64,000 nt of DNA from Planctomycetota bacterium (lineage in GTDB: Bacteria; Planctomycetota; Planctomycetia; Planctomycetales; Planctomycetaceae), in NCBI GenBank assembly GCA_018242525.1, contig JAFEBS010000051.1:1-64000 (forward strand). The letters are read 5' to 3'. The notes beneath the pieces were generated by a model. That model was not told where the DNA came from. It did not search any database and worked only from the letters and a program-made list of their open reading frames with translations. Shown piece by piece: positions 4,179 to 12,372 of this stretch. The position numbers and the translations under genes were made by a program. Position 1 is the stretch's first letter, and each line of letters opens with the position of its first letter.

Positions 4179-4583
4179 GGGGTTGGTCCTTGGGGGCTGT
4201 TGCCTGCGAGAATTCTACCACAATTTCGGGTTGCAATGGTGAGGGAATGTGATTTCAGTGTGTAGTCGAGGTCGGAACGCTGAGTCATGCCCCAGTGTGG
4301 TCCATGCAGCCCCTGGGAACAAACGGACTTTGACGCTGGCAGCGTCGGGCAGGTCCATCGCCTCTTTCAAATTGGGGATCGTGTGCCAAGTTCTTGAGTC
4401 CTCGACATAGCCGTGCTGGTTGAGCACTCGCACGGCCTTCCCGAAGACGGTAAGACCGTGGCACCCCAATTGAAAAAGCCGATGGACCTGCAGCATCGGT
4501 TACGGTTGGTTGCGTCGATTGAGCGAATCTCCAATACTTTTGAATATGAACTCCTGTTTCTCAACGTGCTGGAAGGTTCTACC
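4179..4583. other. Divergent intergenic region with long inverted repeat
   Basis: Separates the minus-strand secreted protein from the esterase/AOR/Fhc cluster. It must hold promoters for both directions, but I see no convincing -35/-10 pair. Its main content is the imperfect inverted repeat at 4350-4490. An open frame runs through the right part (from 4413), but it continues the esterase frame upstream of a better GTG start with a signal peptide, so I treat it as non-coding. Confidence 0.5.
4350..4490. repeat. Imperfect inverted repeat (MITE-like or large hairpin)
   Basis: The left arm 4350-4377 (caggtccatcg ... attgggg) pairs with the right arm 4464-4490 (ccccaatt ... cgatggacctg) with few mismatches. 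A second, inner pairing joins gccgtgc at 4410-4416 with gcacggc at 4430-4436. Total span is about 141 bp, about 95 bp upstream of the esterase start. It could be a small non-autonomous element or a leader-RNA structure of the downstream operon. Confidence 0.55.
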
Positions 4584-5888
4584 GTGACATCGACTCTGAC
4601 TCGTCGGCCATTCGTGATTCTGGCTCTTGTGCTGGCACCGTTCTCGGCCGCGCTGGCGCAGGAGAATGTGCCCGCGGTCACACTGAAGGTTTTCGTCGAT
4701 CGAGCGGATGCCATTTATCACGCGGGTGAGGCGGCGACGTTCTCCATCGAAGCTTTGCGGGGAGATCAAGCTTTGCCAGAAGGGAACGTGGTCTGCGTTT
4801 TCTCCAGGGATGGCTGGAAGCCTCAATCGCCACAGACCGTGGCGTTGAAGGATGGCAAGGGGACGTTGACGGGCAAACTGGACGAGCCGGGTTTCCTGAT
4901 GCTGAAGGCCACGTTGGGAAAGACCTCGGCACTGGCAGCGGCGGCGTACGATCCGCTGCAACTGAAGCCGAGCCTGTCGGTGCCGGAGGATTTCGATGAG
5001 TTCTGGTCTGCTCAGAAAGCAGCCCTCGCCAAGGTCCTGGTGAAGTCGACGCTGACATCCGTTACGCCTCCGGCGAAAGGGATCGAAGCGTTTGATGTGC
5101 AGGTCGATTGCCTGGGCAAGCCGGTCTCTGGGTACTACGGTCGTCCACTGGATGCGAAACCAAAGTCGCTCCCCGCGATCCTGTTTGTGCATGGTGCGGG
5201 CGTTCGCAGTGCCAACCTGGCGAGCACTCACTGGGCGGCCAATGAAGGGGGAATGCTGGCGCTGGATATCAACGCACATGGAATTCCCAATGGCAAGCCC
5301 GCGGAATTCTACACCGACCTGGCCGCCGGGGACCTGAAGGATTATCGCAGCGTGGGTCGCCAGAATCGCGAAGAATGCTATTTCACGGGAATGTTTCTAA
5401 GGTTGATCCGGGCCATCGACTTCCTGGCGGAACAGCCCGAGTGGGATGGGAAGACGATGATTGTCTATGGCAGCAGCCAGGGGGGCTTCCAGGCTCTGGC
5501 CGCTGCGGGGTTGGACTCTCGTGTGACCTTCATTTGTGCGGGGGTGCCCGCCGGATGCGACCACACCGGGATCGCCGTCAATCGAATCAACGGCTGGCCC
5601 AAGATTGTTCCCAACGACGACCAGGGGAAACCGGACGCCGCTGTGCTGCAGGCCTCGCGGTATATCGATTGCGTCAACTTCGCCACACGAGCCCGATGCA
5701 AGGGCGCCGCTGTGACGGTCGGTTTCATCGATACGACCTGTCCTCCCACTGGCGTTTATGTCGCTTACAATGCACTGCCGGTTCCGAAAGAAATTCACGC
5801 TGATGTCCTGGCCGGCCACACAAACACGCCGGGTGCCTCGAAGTTCATGCAGGAAGCGGCATTCAAGCATGTGCGTGCGATGAAATGA
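4584..5888 (+). CDS. Secreted acetyl xylan esterase-like alpha/beta hydrolase
   Basis: From GTG 4584 (GGAAGG ribosome site 7 bases upstream) the product is 434 residues and starts with a clear signal peptide (hydrophobic 'FVILALVLAPFSAALA', cleavage after ALA). An N-terminal beta-sandwich-like part (~30-130) is followed by an alpha/beta hydrolase of the AXE1/cephalosporin-C deacetylase family. The nucleophile is Ser298 in 'YGSSQGG', Asp383 is in 'GFIDTTCPPT', and His412 is in 'AGHTNTPG'. It would remove acetyl groups from polysaccharides or small glycosides outside the cytoplasm. Its stop overlaps the start of the AOR gene (ATGA), so the two are translationally coupled, which is odd for a secreted esterase and a cytoplasmic tungsten enzyme. 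The exact substrate cannot be read from sequence. Confidence 0.82.
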   Translation: MTSTLTRRPFVILALVLAPFSAALAQENVPAVTLKVFVDRADAIYHAGEAATFSIEALRGDQALPEGNVVCVFSRDGWKPQSPQTVALKDGKGTLTGKLDEPGFLMLKATLGKTSALAAAAYDPLQLKPSLSVPEDFDEFWSAQKAALAKVLVKSTLTSVTPPAKGIEAFDVQVDCLGKPVSGYYGRPLDAKPKSLPAILFVHGAGVRSANLASTHWAANEGGMLALDINAHGIPNGKPAEFYTDLAAGDLKDYRSVGRQNREECYFTGMFLRLIRAIDFLAEQPEWDGKTMIVYGSSQGGFQALAAAGLDSRVTFICAGVPAGCDHTGIAVNRINGWPKIVPNDDQGKPDAAVLQASRYIDCVNFATRARCKGAAVTVGFIDTTCPPTGVYVAYNALPVPKEIHADVLAGHTNTPGASKFMQEAAFKHVRAMK

Positions 5889-7681
5889 CACCAAACGTCC
5901 CCGGATATCACAGCGGCTACCTGCGAATCGATGTGACGACCGGTCTGGCCCAGAAGCGGACGCTGCCGGAGCGGACGTTGCGACGATTTCTCGGGGGCAG
6001 CGGCCTGGGTGTGGCCCTGCTCTTGAAAGAGAGAACTGCGACCGTGGATCCACTGGCGCCTGCCGCGGCGCTGGCGTTTGTGTTCAGCCCACTGGTGGGG
6101 AGTCCGCTGACGACATCGGCAAAGTTCGCGGTCGTCAGCAAAAGTCCGCTGACAAACCGGATCAATGATTCCCTGGCCAGCAGCGGGTTTGCACTGGCAG
6201 GCAAGAAGACCGGTCACGATGCGATCCTGGTGGTTGGCCGGGCGGCGCGCCTTTCCATCCTGGTCGTGGACGATGATCAGGTCCGTCTGGAACCGGCGGA
6301 AGATCTGGCGGGCCTGTCCAACCAGGAGACTCAACACCGGATCCGCGAGCGATTGGGGGCGGACTTTCAATGCGCGACGATCGGCCCGGCGGGAGAGAGT
6401 CTGGTCCGGTACGCCACGATTTCACACGATGGTCGTCATGCGGGACGCGGGGGCAGCGGCGCGGTCCTGGGTTCGAAGAACATCAAGGCGATCGCCGTGC
6501 GCGGTTCACGCCGCTGTGATTGGTCAGCCCCGGCCGAACTGGTCGCACTGGCGAAGCAGTTGTCCGAGAAATCGTTTGGTCCGGCGACAGCCAAGTATCG
6601 TGAACTGGGAACCGCTTCCAACCTGTTGACGTTCAATCGATTGAATGTGCTGCCGACCCGCAACTTTCAGCAGGGAAGTTTTGACGGGGCGATCGCGATT
6701 TCTCCCGAGCAATTGGGAGTGGCGCGCGAGCGGACCCGCGCGTCGTGTGTCGCGTGCACGATTGGCTGTGAACACCTGTACAGTTTGAACAGTGGTCAGG
6801 GGTCGGTCCGGCTGGAATACGAAAACCTGTTCGCGCTGGGTCCGTTGTGCGGCATCGATGATCCGGAAGTGGTGTTGGAGGCCTCGCGCCGTTGCGACAA
6901 GCTGGGGATCGACACCATCAGCGCCGGGGGAACGATTGCGTTTGCCATGGAGTGCGCTGAGCGGGGATTTCTGGACGAACCCTGGTTGCGCTTTGGTGAT
7001 GGTCAGGCGTTGCTGCAGGCGCTGGATCTGATCAGCAGCGGCGAGGGACTGGGGAAGTCGCTGGCACTGGGAAGCCGCAGTCTGGCGCTGGAAATCGGTC
7101 GGGGGACGATCGATTTCGCGCCGCAGGTGAAAGGTTTGGAGATTCCCGGTTATGATCCTCGCGGGTTGCAGACGATGGCGTTGGGATTCGCCGTCGGAAC
7201 CCGCGGGGCGGACCATAACCGGTCGGGAGCGTATGAAGTCGACTTTTCCGAGGCGGTGGATCGGCGGAACGTCGGGCCCGAATCGGCGCTCCTGGCGATC
7301 GAAACCGAGGACAAGGCGGCCCTGATGGACTCGCTGATCCTGTGCAAGTTCCTGCGGGGTGTCTTCGCGGAATTCTTTGCCGAATCCGCCGAAATGCTGC
7401 GACTGGTCACCGGTTGGGACGTTTCCGCCGGGGAATTGCGGCGAACCGCCCGGCGGATCGTGACGGCCCGAAAGCAGTTCAACATCCTGGCCGGCTGGAC
7501 TCCACAGGAGGATACGCTGCCGGACCGGATGCTTCGGCAGGCTTTGCCAGAGGATGCACGCGCGGAATTGTCGCCGGAACGGTTGTCGGCCCTGGTAAAA
7601 GCGTACAATCTCGGACGGGGCTGGAGTCCCGAGGGGTGGCTGCCCGAAAGTGAACTCGGCAGCGATCTGGAATTCGAGTAG
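5885..7681 (+). CDS. Aldehyde:ferredoxin oxidoreductase, tungsten-type (AOR family)
   Basis: A 598-residue member of the AOR family, which oxidises aldehydes to acids (or the reverse) with ferredoxin, using a tungsten bis-pterin and one [4Fe-4S] cluster. The N-terminal pterin-binding part has 'FLGGSGLG' and 'GRGGSGAVLGSKNIKAI'. Cluster ligands Cys288, Cys291, Cys295 ('CVACTIGC') and Cys487 ('LILCKF') are all present. Glu313 and His444 fall where active-site acid and histidine residues lie in studied archaeal AORs. Full length for the family. The start overlaps the esterase stop, and the gene is followed 76 bp later by a FwdD-like gene. The physiological aldehyde is unknown; its neighbours suggest a C1 or acetyl-derived compound. 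Confidence 0.88.
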   Translation: MTPNVPGYHSGYLRIDVTTGLAQKRTLPERTLRRFLGGSGLGVALLLKERTATVDPLAPAAALAFVFSPLVGSPLTTSAKFAVVSKSPLTNRINDSLASSGFALAGKKTGHDAILVVGRAARLSILVVDDDQVRLEPAEDLAGLSNQETQHRIRERLGADFQCATIGPAGESLVRYATISHDGRHAGRGGSGAVLGSKNIKAIAVRGSRRCDWSAPAELVALAKQLSEKSFGPATAKYRELGTASNLLTFNRLNVLPTRNFQQGSFDGAIAISPEQLGVARERTRASCVACTIGCEHLYSLNSGQGSVRLEYENLFALGPLCGIDDPEVVLEASRRCDKLGIDTISAGGTIAFAMECAERGFLDEPWLRFGDGQALLQALDLISSGEGLGKSLALGSRSLALEIGRGTIDFAPQVKGLEIPGYDPRGLQTMALGFAVGTRGADHNRSGAYEVDFSEAVDRRNVGPESALLAIETEDKAALMDSLILCKFLRGVFAEFFAESAEMLRLVTGWDVSAGELRRTARRIVTARKQFNILAGWTPQEDTLPDRMLRQALPEDARAELSPERLSALVKAYNLGRGWSPEGWLPESELGSDLEFE

Positions 7682-7757
7682 GGTATTCAGTTCCAACATT
7701 GCGGAAACGCCCCGGCTTACGCTTCGTTTGATTTCTTCTACAGCTTGAGACCACTGC

Positions 7758-8102
7758 ATGCCTGAAACATTCATTCTTATCCCGGGCCGGACCAGCGATC
7801 AGGGCTGTGGGATCAGCGAGGGAAAATTCCTGGAGAAATACCAGCGGGAGATCAACACCCTGCAGGTTCCGCCCGGCGATATGGCCCGCCTGGGACTGGT
7901 CGATGGCGACCGCGTCCGGTTGACGGGTGAAGACGGACAGGTGGTCGAAGTGAATATCACTCCGGCAAAAAAGGACGAGCTTCCAGAGGGGATGCTGTTC
8001 ATCGCCTATGGCGACATTTCCAGCCGCCTGATGGGTGGAGACACGCACGGATCGGGAATGCCAACCAGCAAGGGGATGGACGTTCGTTTGGAGAAGGTTT
8101 GA
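7758..8102 (+). CDS. fwdD: Formylmethanofuran dehydrogenase subunit D-like (molybdopterin dinucleotide-binding)
   Basis: A 114-residue protein matching the FwdD/FmdD family, the small beta-barrel domain that closes over the Mo/W bis-pterin cofactor held by FwdB. Recognisable stretches are 'LIPGRTSDQG', 'DMARLGLVDGDRVRLTGEDG' and 'MPTSKGMDVRLEKV' (G-x-P-x-x-K-G near the C-terminus). It lies between AOR and fhcB in the same direction. The methylotroph Fhc hydrolase works without a metal-pterin, so a FwdD partner here is significant. It could also serve the AOR product only by chance of neighbourhood; AORs do not need such a subunit. Confidence 0.85.
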   Translation: MPETFILIPGRTSDQGCGISEGKFLEKYQREINTLQVPPGDMARLGLVDGDRVRLTGEDGQVVEVNITPAKKDELPEGMLFIAYGDISSRLMGGDTHGSGMPTSKGMDVRLEKV

Positions 8103-8231
8103 CGACGCACGCTGTGCGGTTGCGTCGGGAGTCCCGCTGGACCAGAATGGGGCTTCGCAGGAAGTCGTTTCCCCTTTGGCTGGGGAAAGTTACGGCGAGT
8201 CGATAGTCGATTCCACAGACTGAGGTTTCAG

Positions 8232-9572
8232 ATGGCCGCGACCACCGAATCCACTGCCACTCCCCCAGGGGAATTGAAAATTGTCCAAGACGCGACCTGC
8301 ACGTTCTGCGGGTGCGTGTGCGACGACATCGATCTGACGGTTCAGGACAATCATATTACCGAAGCCAAGCGCGCCTGCGTGCTTGGCAAGGCCTGGTTCC
8401 TGAATCACAGCATCGAAGACCGCCCCAGTTGCCTGGTGGACGGCAAGCCCGCCACGCTGGAAGCGGGTTATGATCGCGCAGCCCAGATCCTGACGACCGG
8501 CAAATATCCGATCATCTACGGACTGAGCGATTCGCCCTGTGAAGCACAGCGGGTGGCGGTCAGCATCGTGGACTGGATCAACGGGACGATCGACACGACC
8601 ACCAGTGTCTGTCACGGACCGTCCGGCATGGCGTTCCAGGGAGTCGGGGAAGTCACCTGTTCACTGGGTGAAGTGGCCAACCGTGGCGATCTGATCATGT
8701 TCTGGGGATCGAACCCGGCCGAAAGTCATCCGCGTCACTTCACCAAGTACAGCCTGATGCCGAAAGGGATGTTCCTGCCCAACGGACGCAAGGACCGCAC
8801 TTGCGTGATCGTGGATGTGCGCCGTACGAAGAGTGCCAAGGCCGCCGACATCTTCGTCCAGATCAAGCCCCGCGCCGACTTTGAAGGCCTGTGGACGTTG
8901 CGAGCTCTCGCCAAGGGGATCGACCTGGATCCGAAAGTCGTCCTGCGGGATACGGGAGTCGAACTGGCTGTGTGGACGGACCTGATGGCCCGGATGAAGG
9001 CTGCCAAGTTTGGTGTCATCTTCTTCGGCATGGGAGTCACCATGACCCGCGGCAAGCATGCCAACAGCGAAGCATTGCTGGCATTGACCCGTGACATGAA
9101 TGCCTACACGCGGTTCGTCGCCAAGCCGAACCGCGGACACGGCAACGTGACCGGAGCGGACAACGTCGTGGCGTGGCGAACGGGATATCCGTTTGGCGTC
9201 AATCATTCACGCGGATATCCCCGGTTCAATCCGGGTGAATACACCACATCGGACACACTGGCCAACGGCGAAGCGGACTGTGGCATGACCATCGCCTGCG
9301 ATCCGATGGCGAACTTTTCGCAACCCGCCCGCCAGCATCTCAGCTCCATTCCGTACATCGCCCTGGACACGAAAGAGACGCCGACAACCCGTGCCGCCGC
9401 GGTCGCCTTTACGGTTGCCACTTATGGGATCAATACGGGTGGAACTGTCTACAGGATGGATGACGTGCCGATTCCGTTGCGTCCCGCGTTTGATTCGCCA
9501 CACCCCAGCGATTTTGAAGTGTTGACGCAGATCGAACGCCGGGTCAAGAAGATTGTCGGAATCACGAGCTGA
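8232..9572 (+). CDS. fhcB: Formylmethanofuran dehydrogenase subunit B
   Basis: A 446-residue FwdB/FhcB protein of the molybdopterin oxidoreductase superfamily. The N-terminal [4Fe-4S] motif is intact: Cys23, Cys26 and Cys30 in 'CTFCGCVC' and Cys49 in 'KRACVLGKAW'. Cys127 in 'TTSVCHGPSG' corresponds to the cysteine that binds tungsten or molybdenum in archaeal FwdB. Pterin-binding stretches include 'LIMFWGSNPAESHPRH', 'VIVDVRRT' and 'TVYRMDDVPI'. In archaea the complex reduces CO2 to formate for FwdA. In aerobic methylotrophs FhcB has lost these ligands. Here they are kept and a FwdD partner is adjacent, so a redox-active complex is a fair inference. Confidence 0.9.
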   Translation: MAATTESTATPPGELKIVQDATCTFCGCVCDDIDLTVQDNHITEAKRACVLGKAWFLNHSIEDRPSCLVDGKPATLEAGYDRAAQILTTGKYPIIYGLSDSPCEAQRVAVSIVDWINGTIDTTTSVCHGPSGMAFQGVGEVTCSLGEVANRGDLIMFWGSNPAESHPRHFTKYSLMPKGMFLPNGRKDRTCVIVDVRRTKSAKAADIFVQIKPRADFEGLWTLRALAKGIDLDPKVVLRDTGVELAVWTDLMARMKAAKFGVIFFGMGVTMTRGKHANSEALLALTRDMNAYTRFVAKPNRGHGNVTGADNVVAWRTGYPFGVNHSRGYPRFNPGEYTTSDTLANGEADCGMTIACDPMANFSQPARQHLSSIPYIALDTKETPTTRAAAVAFTVATYGINTGGTVYRMDDVPIPLRPAFDSPHPSDFEVLTQIERRVKKIVGITS

Positions 9573-9705
9573 AAGAAAACACGAGCCCGACGCACCTGCG
9601 AGAGAAACGTCACAGGGTTCCATACTCGTGCGTCGTTGGTGTGCAGATAACGCCCCTGGGTCAAGACTCGGTCCCATCCCTTCCGAAACAAAGACGCACC
9701 ACCTG
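9573..9705 (+). other. fhcB-fhcA gap with small inverted repeat
   Basis: The 133 bp between fhcB and fhcA hold a perfect 8-bp inverted repeat, cgacgcac at 9588-9595 and gtgcgtcg at 9628-9635, with a 32-base spacer. The frame of fhcA is open through it (giving peptides like EPDAPARETS), but the proper fhcA start is ATG 9706. The stretch resembles dispersed intergenic repeats I remember from planctomycete genomes, which is a weak recollection. It could attenuate or process the mRNA between the two genes. Confidence 0.4.
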
Positions 9706-11364
9706 ATGCCCAACCTCGACTATCTCAAGATCTCCCAAGGGACCGTGTACGACCCGGCCAACGGCATTGATGGCGAAATCCGTGACTTGTGGATTGCCGA
9801 GGGACGGATTGTCGATGCACCCACCGATCCCTCGGTCCGACCTTCGCGAACGATTGATGCTGCCGGACTGGTCGTGATGCCGGGGGGCATCGACATGCAT
9901 TGCCACATCGCGGGGCCCAAGGTCAATGTCGCCCGCAAGATGCGACCCGAGGAAAAGCGCCGCGGCGTGCCGATGCCCCGCACCAGTATCGCGCATAGCG
10001 GCACCATGGGAAGTGTTCCGAGCACGTTTGCCACCGGTTACAAATATGCGGGGCTGGGGTACACGACTGCGTTTGATGCCGCCATCCCGCCGCTGGGTGC
10101 TCGCCATGCCCACGAGGAATTCGACGACACACCCTGCCTGGACAAGGGCTTCTATGTCCTGATGGGGAACAATCACTTTGTCATGCAGTCCATTCAGCAG
10201 AATGAACCGCAGAAGCTGAAGGCATTCATCGGCTGGCTGCTGACCGCGACCAAGGGGTTTGCACCGAAGCTGGTCAATCCCGGTGGTGTCGAAGTCTGGA
10301 AGTCACACCAGGCGGGCAACGTCAGCGGGCTGGATTCCGATGTCGATCACTTCCACGTCACGCCCCGACAGATCATTCGCGGTGTTGCCCAGGCGGCTGG
10401 TGAACTGGGGTTGCCACATCCGGTCCACATCCACTGCAATAACCTGGGGATGCCCGGCAATTGGCATACCACGCTGGATACGATGCAGTCGCTGGAAGGT
10501 CATCGCGGCCATATCACTCACGCGCAGTTTCACAGCTATGGCGGTGGTAATGGTGACGAGAACACGTTCAACAGCAAAGTGCTGCCGCTGGCGGATTATG
10601 TCAATTCGCACTCCAACATCACCATCGACGTGGGCCAGGTTCTGTTTGGTGAAACCACCAGCATGACGGGCGACGGGCCGCTGGGTTACTTCCTGTCCAA
10701 GATCTACGGCGGAAAGTGGTTCAGCGGCGATACCGAGATGGAATCGGGTTGCGGGATCACTCCGATCAAGTACAAGAACAAGTCGCTGGTCCATTCGCTG
10801 CAATGGGCGATCGGGCTGGAGTGGTACCTGCTGGTGAACGATCCCTGGCGTGTTGTCATGAGTACCGACCATCCGAACGGCGGTTCGTTCCTGGCGTATC
10901 CGCAAATCATCCGCCTGTTGATGGACCGGACCTACCGGCAGGATGTCCTGAAGACATGTCCACCGGAGATCCTGCAGCGATCGACTTTGGGCGATCTGAC
11001 CCGCGAGTATACGCTGAACGAGATCGCAATCATCACCCGGGCGGGACCGGCGAGAATCCTGGGCCTGAAGGACAAGGGGCACCTGGGAATCGGGGCGGAC
11101 GCCGACATCACCATCTACACGCCTCATGAAAACAAGGAAACGATGTTCGAGCTGCCGCGACTGGTGATCAAGTCCGGTCGGATCGTCGTCGAACAGGGAG
11201 AAATCCGCGATCCGCTGATTGGAAAGACGCTGCACGTCCAACCCGATTACGATCATGACCTGGAGGGTAGCATCCAGGAATGGTTCGAGAAGTATTACTC
11301 CATCCGCTGGCGAAATTACCCGGTCGACAGCAGTTACATGCATGAATCGTGCGTGGTGAAGTAG
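9706..11364 (+). CDS. fhcA: Formylmethanofuran dehydrogenase/hydrolase subunit A (amidohydrolase)
   Basis: A 552-residue FwdA/FhcA of the amidohydrolase superfamily, which interconverts formate and formylmethanofuran at a binuclear zinc site. His65 and His67 in 'GIDMHCHIAG' are the first metal ligands, Lys188 in 'KLVNPGG' is the likely carboxylated bridging lysine, histidines in 'VHIHCNNLG' and 'HAQFHSYGG' follow, and 'STDHPNGG' supplies the final aspartate. ATG 9706 is chosen because family members begin near 'LDYLKISQGTVYDPANG'; the upstream extension to 9553 has no homolog-like sequence. It acts together with FhcB and FhcD of this cluster. Confidence 0.92.
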   Translation: MPNLDYLKISQGTVYDPANGIDGEIRDLWIAEGRIVDAPTDPSVRPSRTIDAAGLVVMPGGIDMHCHIAGPKVNVARKMRPEEKRRGVPMPRTSIAHSGTMGSVPSTFATGYKYAGLGYTTAFDAAIPPLGARHAHEEFDDTPCLDKGFYVLMGNNHFVMQSIQQNEPQKLKAFIGWLLTATKGFAPKLVNPGGVEVWKSHQAGNVSGLDSDVDHFHVTPRQIIRGVAQAAGELGLPHPVHIHCNNLGMPGNWHTTLDTMQSLEGHRGHITHAQFHSYGGGNGDENTFNSKVLPLADYVNSHSNITIDVGQVLFGETTSMTGDGPLGYFLSKIYGGKWFSGDTEMESGCGITPIKYKNKSLVHSLQWAIGLEWYLLVNDPWRVVMSTDHPNGGSFLAYPQIIRLLMDRTYRQDVLKTCPPEILQRSTLGDLTREYTLNEIAIITRAGPARILGLKDKGHLGIGADADITIYTPHENKETMFELPRLVIKSGRIVVEQGEIRDPLIGKTLHVQPDYDHDLEGSIQEWFEKYYSIRWRNYPVDSSYMHESCVVK

Positions 11365-11445
11365 CGGTTGGCGATCACAGTCATCCGCAATGCCGTTCAC
11401 AACAGCCAAGTTTCCATCCAACCACATTTCCATTCGGATCACCCG

Positions 11446-12372
11446 ATGACGTCGGATCCCACTCCAGCACCAGTCCTGCTCAACCTGAACGGCGTCGAAG
11501 TGGTCGACACGTTTGCGGAAGCGTTTCCGATCAAGGCGGCCCGGCTGATCATCACCGCGGTCAGTCCGAAATGGGCGGAAACGGCCGCGACCGTCCTGTG
11601 CGGGAATGCCACCAGCGTGATCGCCTGCGATGTCGAAGCCGCCATCGAGCGTACGCTGGATGGGGATCAGACACCCGATGGACGTCCGGGTGTGTCAGTG
11701 CTCGTGTTTGGATTCAGCACGGACAGCCTGGCCAAGTCGCTGCAGGGGCGTGTTGGACAATGCATTCTGACCTGTCCCACGACGGCCTGTTACAACGGGA
11801 TCCTGGACTGTCCCCGGGAAAAGCGAATTCGCATTGGTGGCGGAATCCGTTACTTTGGGGACACCTTTCAAAAGTCCAAGAAGCTGGGTGATCGCCGTTT
11901 CTGGCGGATCCCGGTGATGGATGGCGAGTTCCTGTGTGAAGACTATTTCGGAACAGTGACAGGCGTGGCCGGTGGCAATCTCTTGATCTGCGGTACGAAC
12001 TCCGCCACCGCATTACTGGCGGCGGAAGCAGCAGTGGACGCCATTCGTCGGGAGCCGAATGTGGCGCTGCCGTTTCCTGGCGGTCTCGTGCGATCTGGTA
12101 GTAAAGTGGGATCGAAGTACCCGAAGCTGAAGGCCAGCACGAATGACGCCTATTGCCCGACATTGCGAGGCATCACGGCGAGCGAGCTTCCTGCGAGTTG
12201 TCAGGCCGTCTACGAAATTGTGATCGATGGACTGAGCTTTGATGATGTGCAGGCTGCGATGCGGCGGGGACTGCAGACCGCCGCTACTGTTGCAGGCGTC
12301 ATTCGGATCACTGCCGGAAACTATGGTGGAAAGCTGGGGAAGCACCATTACCACTTGCGAGAATTAATGTAG
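11446..12372 (+). CDS. fhcD: Formylmethanofuran--tetrahydromethanopterin formyltransferase
   Basis: A 308-residue Ftr/FhcD protein that transfers the formyl group between methanofuran and tetrahydromethanopterin. Family stretches include 'VEVVDTFAEAFPIKAARLIITA', cut here to 'DTFAEAFPIKAARLIITA', then 'RVGQCILTCPTTACYNG', 'RYFGDTFQ' and 'TAGNYGGKLGKHHYHLREL'. Length equals archaeal Ftr. ATG 11446 is the first good start; the open frame upstream to 11368 has only a TTG. It is the last gene of the cluster, 81 bp after fhcA. No fhcC follows, unlike the fhcCDAB or fhcBADC sets of other bacteria. Confidence 0.93.
   Translation: MTSDPTPAPVLLNLNGVEVVDTFAEAFPIKAARLIITAVSPKWAETAATVLCGNATSVIACDVEAAIERTLDGDQTPDGRPGVSVLVFGFSTDSLAKSLQGRVGQCILTCPTTACYNGILDCPREKRIRIGGGIRYFGDTFQKSKKLGDRRFWRIPVMDGEFLCEDYFGTVTGVAGGNLLICGTNSATALLAAEAAVDAIRREPNVALPFPGGLVRSGSKVGSKYPKLKASTNDAYCPTLRGITASELPASCQAVYEIVIDGLSFDDVQAAMRRGLQTAATVAGVIRITAGNYGGKLGKHHYHLRELM

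Follow-up and report, generated by a model that had tools for sequence, protein, structure and literature searches.

Gene content of the cluster

We analysed a window of 64,000 nucleotides (positions 1 to 64,000 of contig JAFEBS010000051.1, assembly GCA_018242525.1, Planctomycetota bacterium) and found a cluster of five intact genes on the + strand at 5885-12372 (Table 1). The genes follow one another in the order aldehyde:ferredoxin oxidoreductase (AOR), FwdD, FwdB/FhcB, FwdA/FhcA and Ftr/FhcD, separated by 76, 129, 136 and 78 nt when the start of Ftr is taken as the ATG at 11443. This agrees with the preliminary description of this DNA, which had placed these genes in one direction with small gaps.

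The assignments were made with family models. AOR matched the Pfam families AFOR_N (E 5e-61) and AFOR_C (E 3e-97), and the scores of FwdB (TIGR03129, 465 bits, cut-off 328), FwdA (TIGR03121, 749 bits, cut-off 393) and Ftr (TIGR03119, 434 bits, cut-off 293) lay above the cut-offs of the models. FwdD matched NCBIfam NF042908 at E 9e-18, which is under the curated cut-off of that model, and the motifs GRTxxQG and GMPxSKG are conserved among its relatives. Compared with close relatives, all five genes diverge mostly at third codon positions. A scan for promoters and terminators gave no excess over shuffled sequence.

Table 1. Genes of the cluster and the codons of the predicted metal site (positions in the window)
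Feature	Position	Strand	Basis
AOR, tungsten-type aldehyde:ferredoxin oxidoreductase, 598 aa	5885..7681	+	AFOR_N/AFOR_C; best PDB match 1aor, E 4e-97
FwdD, molybdopterin-dinucleotide-binding subunit, 114 aa	7758..8102	+	Molydop_binding; NF042908; PDB 2ki8/9sfi_S/5t5i_D
FwdB/FhcB, predicted catalytic W/Mo subunit, 446 aa	8232..9572	+	TIGR03129; alignment to 5t5i_B, 8rja_B
Codons of FwdB Cys127-His128 (predicted W/Mo ligand and neighbouring His)	8610..8615	+	Numbering from structure alignment
FwdA/FhcA, amidohydrolase-type formyl-transfer subunit, 551 aa	9709..11364	+	TIGR03121; PDB 8rja_A (E 1e-151), 5t5i_A, 6s6y_A
Ftr/FhcD, formylmethanofuran:tetrahydromethanopterin formyltransferase, 309 aa	11443..12372	+	TIGR03119; Pfam FTR, FTR_C

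Active site and phylogeny of FwdB

In an alignment with 5t5i_B and 8rja_B from crystal structures, the FwdB of the window, about 41% identical to archaeal FwdB, keeps the cysteines of the FwdB [4Fe-4S] site (C23, C26, C30 and C49) as well as His128 and Arg301 (within RGHGNVTG), and its Cys127 falls at the position of the metal ligand (Cys118 of 5t5i; motif CHGPS in 5t5i_B). For comparison, contigs were scanned for window-type FwdB and the best 80 of 571 loci were analysed, 65 of which are planctomycete; the SVCHGP motif is kept in 79/80 and the four cluster cysteines in 80/80. The [4Fe-4S] cysteines are also retained in the ligand-less planctomycete paralogue, so this feature does not discriminate. 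Such a paralogue is encoded on contig C58 of the same genome: a second B subunit, 45% identical to the first, with Gly at the ligand position (TSEGHAPS) and RVV in place of RGH, looks as a metal-free Fhc-type scaffold would and could support formate release only. Thus, a ligand-bearing and a ligand-less B version coexist in one genome. Because Cys127, His128, Arg301 and the four cysteines of archaeal FwdB are all kept, the window B subunit is, judged by its predicted active site, not a metal-free Fhc scaffold. The active-site residues and the presence of FwdD support the earlier proposal of a B/D pair competent for tungsten (W)- or molybdenum (Mo)-pterin redox chemistry.

In a FwdB tree rooted on five archaeal sequences, the bacterial proteins divide into a planctomycete Fhc-like clade (support 100/99) and a redox clade (92/98), the latter holding planctomycete Cys forms, Cys forms of Gammaproteobacteria, Chloroflexota and Nitrospirota, and a clade of selenocysteine (Sec) forms (100/100). 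Terminal branches are mostly shorter than 0.25 in the redox clade and range from 0.33 to 0.89 in the Fhc-like clade, as expected under weaker constraint on a ligand-less FhcB. The complex had been called closer to the archaeal enzyme, which is correct for the active site; in the tree, the window FwdB groups in a clade of bacterial proteins, separate from those of archaea. Among the matches listed, the closest named FwdB (up to 89% identity) come from Planctomicrobium, Schlesneria and other planctomycete metagenome-assembled genomes (MAGs). A record titled 'Euryarchaeota archaeon' (L196, PBMS01000038.1) carries a FwdB 78% identical to planctomycete FwdB and is probably mislabelled or mis-binned. 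Two Fhc-like B subunits with Cys at the ligand position, L048:1917-3209 (G266) and L073 (G152), lie inside the otherwise ligand-less planctomycete clade and are possible intermediates or reversions.

We further searched 392 planctomycete genomes and detected FwdD at E<1e-17 in 18. Near-full-length redox-type FwdB was found in 17 genomes, all 17 of them FwdD-positive, whereas genomes with Fhc-like B only were without FwdD at this threshold; in one further genome (G079) a fragment of redox-type FwdB lies at the edge of a contig, and no match to FwdD was detected. Eight of these genomes are window-like, with Cys at the ligand (type I), and nine have an in-frame UGA exactly at the ligand codon (HTSL-U-HGPT; type II, loci L059-L067 in G353, G343, G117, G307, G306, G344, G148, G266 and G320, and also L042-L051). 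In type II loci fwdD lies upstream of fwdB, and fwdA and fwdC are usually downstream. Since weak tRNA-Sec matches occurred in every genome, controls included, only strong ones (at least 65 bits) were counted; they were present in two type I genomes and in 8/9 type II genomes, the exception being a genome of 62% completeness. A hairpin follows the UGA in each of the four type II loci for which the motif could be placed by the scan. A catalytic redox site, but not a scaffold, would be expected to exchange Cys and Sec at its metal ligand. With at most four candidates scored per genome, a redox-type B was the only one detected in G061, G130 and most type II genomes.

Gene neighbourhoods and the position of AOR

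Relatives of the window-type FwdB occur in Planctomycetota, Gammaproteobacteria, Chloroflexota and Nitrospirota, and the arrangement, which might have been peculiar to this strain, recurs in many planctomycetes. FwdD lies directly upstream of FwdB in 52/65 planctomycete loci. An AOR with more than 50% identity was found at 23/65 (within 5 kb in 20), and in 12 loci it stands directly before FwdD on the same strand with a gap below 500 nt. It was upstream on the same strand in 15 loci, upstream on the opposite strand in six and downstream in two, in Planctomycetaceae and Pirellulaceae. When the planctomycete loci with at least 8 kb on either side were counted, AOR of this identity was nearby in 16/29, compared with an expectation of about 0.4% per locus for one randomly placed gene, although the loci are not independent. 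Because FwdD is so often upstream of FwdB and AOR so often nearby, the gene order is not due to chance. In about 16 loci a MoaD-like protein is encoded next to AOR, and in 12 planctomycete loci the neighbourhood of FwdA/FwdC includes a MobA-like protein, of the guanylyltransferase type that makes the bis-molybdopterin guanine dinucleotide cofactor.

The AOR of the window itself is intact. Its alignment to 1aor keeps the 4Fe-4S ligands C288, C291, C295 and C494 and the W-site residues E313 and H448 (1aor numbering); the motifs CVACTIGC, EYENLF, RGADH and LILCKF were located. Within the family, AOR was present in 6/6 type I genomes compared with 3/22 others (hypergeometric p 2e-4, uncorrected for kinship), and in G291 it still adjoins FwdD while FwdB lies elsewhere. 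Together with the 12 loci in which AOR directly precedes FwdD, these observations would suit a single physical complex of AOR, FwdD, FwdB and FwdA, as the preliminary description had suggested, with direct electron exchange between AOR and FwdB. However, AOR is absent from type II genomes and gammaproteobacterial clusters, is on contigs other than that of the Fwd cluster in G087, G257 and G365, and is widespread in planctomycetes without FwdB, and no linking subunit was seen. We therefore regard one complex as very improbable and take AOR as a linked but separate enzyme, not a constant Fwd subunit. Opposite to this, AOR could lie next to the Fwd genes by chance or simple inheritance and be functionally unrelated to them; a planctomycete locus (L174) that has AOR with MoaD and MobA but no FwdD or redox-type FwdB is consistent with this, yet the frequency of AOR near FwdB, in three arrangements and several families, makes it unlikely. 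As a separate ferredoxin-linked tungsten-type enzyme, AOR would probably be kept nearby for a common ferredoxin pool and W-pterin supply. Three further loci (L166-L168, in G024, G137 and G194) have an AOR 58-63% identical to that of the window, yet only Fhc-like B and no FwdD, which shows that AOR can persist without redox FwdB.

In nine gammaproteobacterial loci (L238, L244, L246, L250, L251, L252, L253, L255 and L256), genes for an FdxA-type ferredoxin and then for a pyridine-nucleotide oxidoreductase of 459 aa come after fwdD-B-A-ftr-C, and MtdB and MptG are often encoded close by. Judged by where it lies and by the type of its sequence, the oxidoreductase is a putative ferredoxin:NADP reductase (FNR), a name given to it by none of the family models searched, and the operon suggests NADPH formation from formyl-methylofuran. 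On one gammaproteobacterial contig (L256:9604-21266) the redox-type fwd operon has a classical Fhc set directly downstream. A Cys-type fwdD-fwdB-fwdA is present in Chromatiales bacterium USCg_Taylor (L247), an upland-soil-cluster-gamma methanotroph MAG.

Next to the cluster in the window, an AXE1-like esterase gene (4578-5888) shares 4 nt (ATGA) with the start of AOR; it was rejected as a cluster member, being nearby in no relative. At the left end of the window, a replication/primase-like open reading frame (12-899) and a tyrosine-recombinase-like one (1031-2437) look, from their translations, like part of an integrated element.

Proposed function and comparison with known systems

We propose, with a probability of about 0.75, that these genes specify the core subunits of a bacterial formylmethanofuran dehydrogenase, an enzyme best known from methanogenic archaea, and that this dehydrogenase is redox-active, depends on W or Mo, works oxidatively and is linked to ferredoxin, with AOR as a separate enzyme. 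Several lines of evidence point to this: Cys127, His128, Arg301 and the four cluster cysteines line up with the structures 5t5i and 8rja; the ligand codon is UGA in the nine type II genomes, eight of which have a strong tRNA-Sec match; FwdD accompanies every near-full-length Cys or Sec FwdB and no Fhc-only genome; MobA-like, MoaD-like, ferredoxin and putative reductase genes are neighbours in relatives; FwdB of the redox clade evolves slowly compared with ligand-less FhcB; Fae occurs in every one of the 16 genomes tested; and the window's genome has a MobA-like gene, scoring under the curated cut-off, but no formate dehydrogenase (FDH) match above the TIGR01591 cut-off. Gene content, active-site residues, the tree, linkage and co-occurrence are read from the sequences; catalytic activity, the metal, the direction of the reaction, its electron acceptor and what AOR contributes are inferred, the reaction steps being modelled on the archaeal enzyme. 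The enzyme would most likely catalyse the last step of the tetrahydromethanopterin (H4MPT) pathway of formaldehyde oxidation. Formaldehyde would be captured on H4MPT by Fae and oxidised to formyl-H4MPT, from which Ftr would transfer the formyl group to methanofuran or methylofuran. FwdA would hydrolyse formyl-methanofuran to formate, FwdB-FwdD would oxidise formate to CO2 at the metal-bis-pterin, and the electrons would leave through the FwdB [4Fe-4S] cluster to ferredoxin. In this scheme FwdB-FwdD-FwdA and Ftr would form the core, and FwdC would be supplied from another locus.

The same genes might instead form an ordinary metal-free Fhc complex, in which FhcB is a scaffold, hydrolysis of formyl-methanofuran to formate is the only reaction and FwdD is a remnant. 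FwdA and Ftr are common to Fhc, planctomycetes are known for Fhc-type genes, and a 2016 review states that planctomycetes are without fwdD (PMC5020050), a claim that our data contradict. The complete W/Mo ligand set with the 4Fe-4S cysteines, the strict co-occurrence with FwdD, Sec at the ligand position in sister sequences, the MobA and ferredoxin neighbours in relatives and the separate ligand-less FhcB already in this genome all speak against such a complex, which we consider highly unlikely. A reductive direction is somewhat less improbable, though still unlikely: as methanogens do, the cell would use reduced ferredoxin to fix CO2 onto methanofuran, and AOR would help to supply or consume ferredoxin electrons. 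Formylmethanofuran dehydrogenase of archaea works in both directions, and AOR can produce reduced ferredoxin by oxidising aldehydes. A Wood-Ljungdahl pathway is reported in an actinobacterium that carries fwdDBA-ftr-fwdC (PMC7325909). On the other side, Fae, the entry point of formaldehyde, was found in 16/16 genomes tested, and the gammaproteobacterial operons adjoin MtdB, MptG and the putative NADP-type reductase.

Several observations weigh against the proposed dehydrogenase. FwdC is absent from the window, and its only copy found in the genome is remote from the cluster, on contig C47 (G000:C47:6733-7512). No FwdF/FwdG ferredoxin subunit recurs beside the planctomycete loci (FwdE/F/G-like genes were not sought genome-wide), and no MoaD, MobA or ferredoxin/FNR pair was found in the 64 kb of the window. 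FDH-like molybdoenzymes encoded on contigs C93 and C52 of this genome are a possible independent formate route. The reaction could also be reversed or minor in vivo. The TIGR01591 search did not bear out the idea that redox FwdB replaces FDH: an FDH above the cut-off occurs in most genomes of the family with AOR, although not in the window's genome or in G087, and the remaining matches are of ambiguous nitrate-reductase or FdhF/YdeP types.

In the window's genome FwdB, FwdA and Ftr are each present twice and FwdC once; each of the other five type I genomes in the family encodes FwdB twice, with a single FwdA and a single FwdC. Two FwdB with a single FwdC (and, in five genomes, a single FwdA) suggest that two B subunits share one core. 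More tentatively, and less likely than not, one FwdA/FwdC core might accept two interchangeable B subunits: with the Cys-type FwdB-FwdD it would act as a ferredoxin-reducing dehydrogenase and with the ligand-less FhcB as a hydrolase, so that metal or oxygen supply would switch the product between CO2 with low-potential electrons and formate.

The H4MPT/methanofuran pathway of bacteria is mostly portrayed as finishing with a hydrolase that contains no metal. A bacterial clade of broad range whose W/Mo site is intact, found as the sole detected B or beside a ligand-less paralogue, is a natural two-version system; it lets one ask how Fhc arose from Fwd, and the Gly/Cys/Sec exchange at one codon is directly testable. 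It suggests that some planctomycetes and gammaproteobacteria, including USCg_Taylor, may end formaldehyde oxidation with reduced ferredoxin or NADPH and not with formate release, and one cell may have two routes to finish it, by a metal-dependent and a metal-free enzyme.

Redox-type bacterial Fwd itself was reported before. According to Kim et al. 2016 (PMC4807772), planctomycete P2 (Rhodopirellula) has a Sec FmdB in an operon fmdD-fmdB-fmdA-fmdC, Gly forms occur in three other planctomycetes, and Methylomirabilis has the same operon order; PMC7325909 describes an actinobacterial (Hakuba) FwdB with Cys118 and a 4Fe-4S site. Acquisition of bacterial FwdB from Archaea has also been reported (PMC10100899). 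In a partial literature search we found no earlier description of the Cys clade with AOR/MoaD/MobA, of its coexistence with a ligand-less paralogue or of the ferredoxin-reductase operon.

Compared with known systems, the window resembles archaeal Fwd/Fmd (PDB 5t5i, 8rja, 7bkb, 9sfi) in the FwdB Cys/Sec ligand, His, Arg and 4Fe-4S site, in the separate FwdD, in the FwdA amidohydrolase and in FwdC, here encoded elsewhere in the genome; it differs in that no FwdF/FwdG polyferredoxin was seen beside the cluster and that its FwdB belongs to a bacterial clade with AOR/MoaD/MobA or ferredoxin-FNR neighbours. Fhc of Methylorubrum extorquens (PDB 6s6y) likewise has FhcA, FhcB and FhcD homologues and serves formaldehyde oxidation via H4MPT, but its FhcB is metal-free and matches the window B weakly (E 1e-13, over part of the length), whereas the window B keeps the metal ligand and is accompanied by FwdD. 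The operon of planctomycete P2 also pairs a planctomycete redox-type FwdB with FwdD, but uses Sec instead of Cys and includes fwdC; the Sec-type genomes that we examined lack AOR, and they make up a subclade of their own with full support. The Hakuba and Methylomirabilis systems are bacterial Fwd too, in different metabolic settings and with no AOR, MoaD or MobA linkage described in the accessible text of these sources. The AOR of the window shares the AFOR domains and all metal-site residues checked with Pyrococcus furiosus AOR (1aor), from which planctomycete AOR differs in being linked to formylmethanofuran genes and MoaD.
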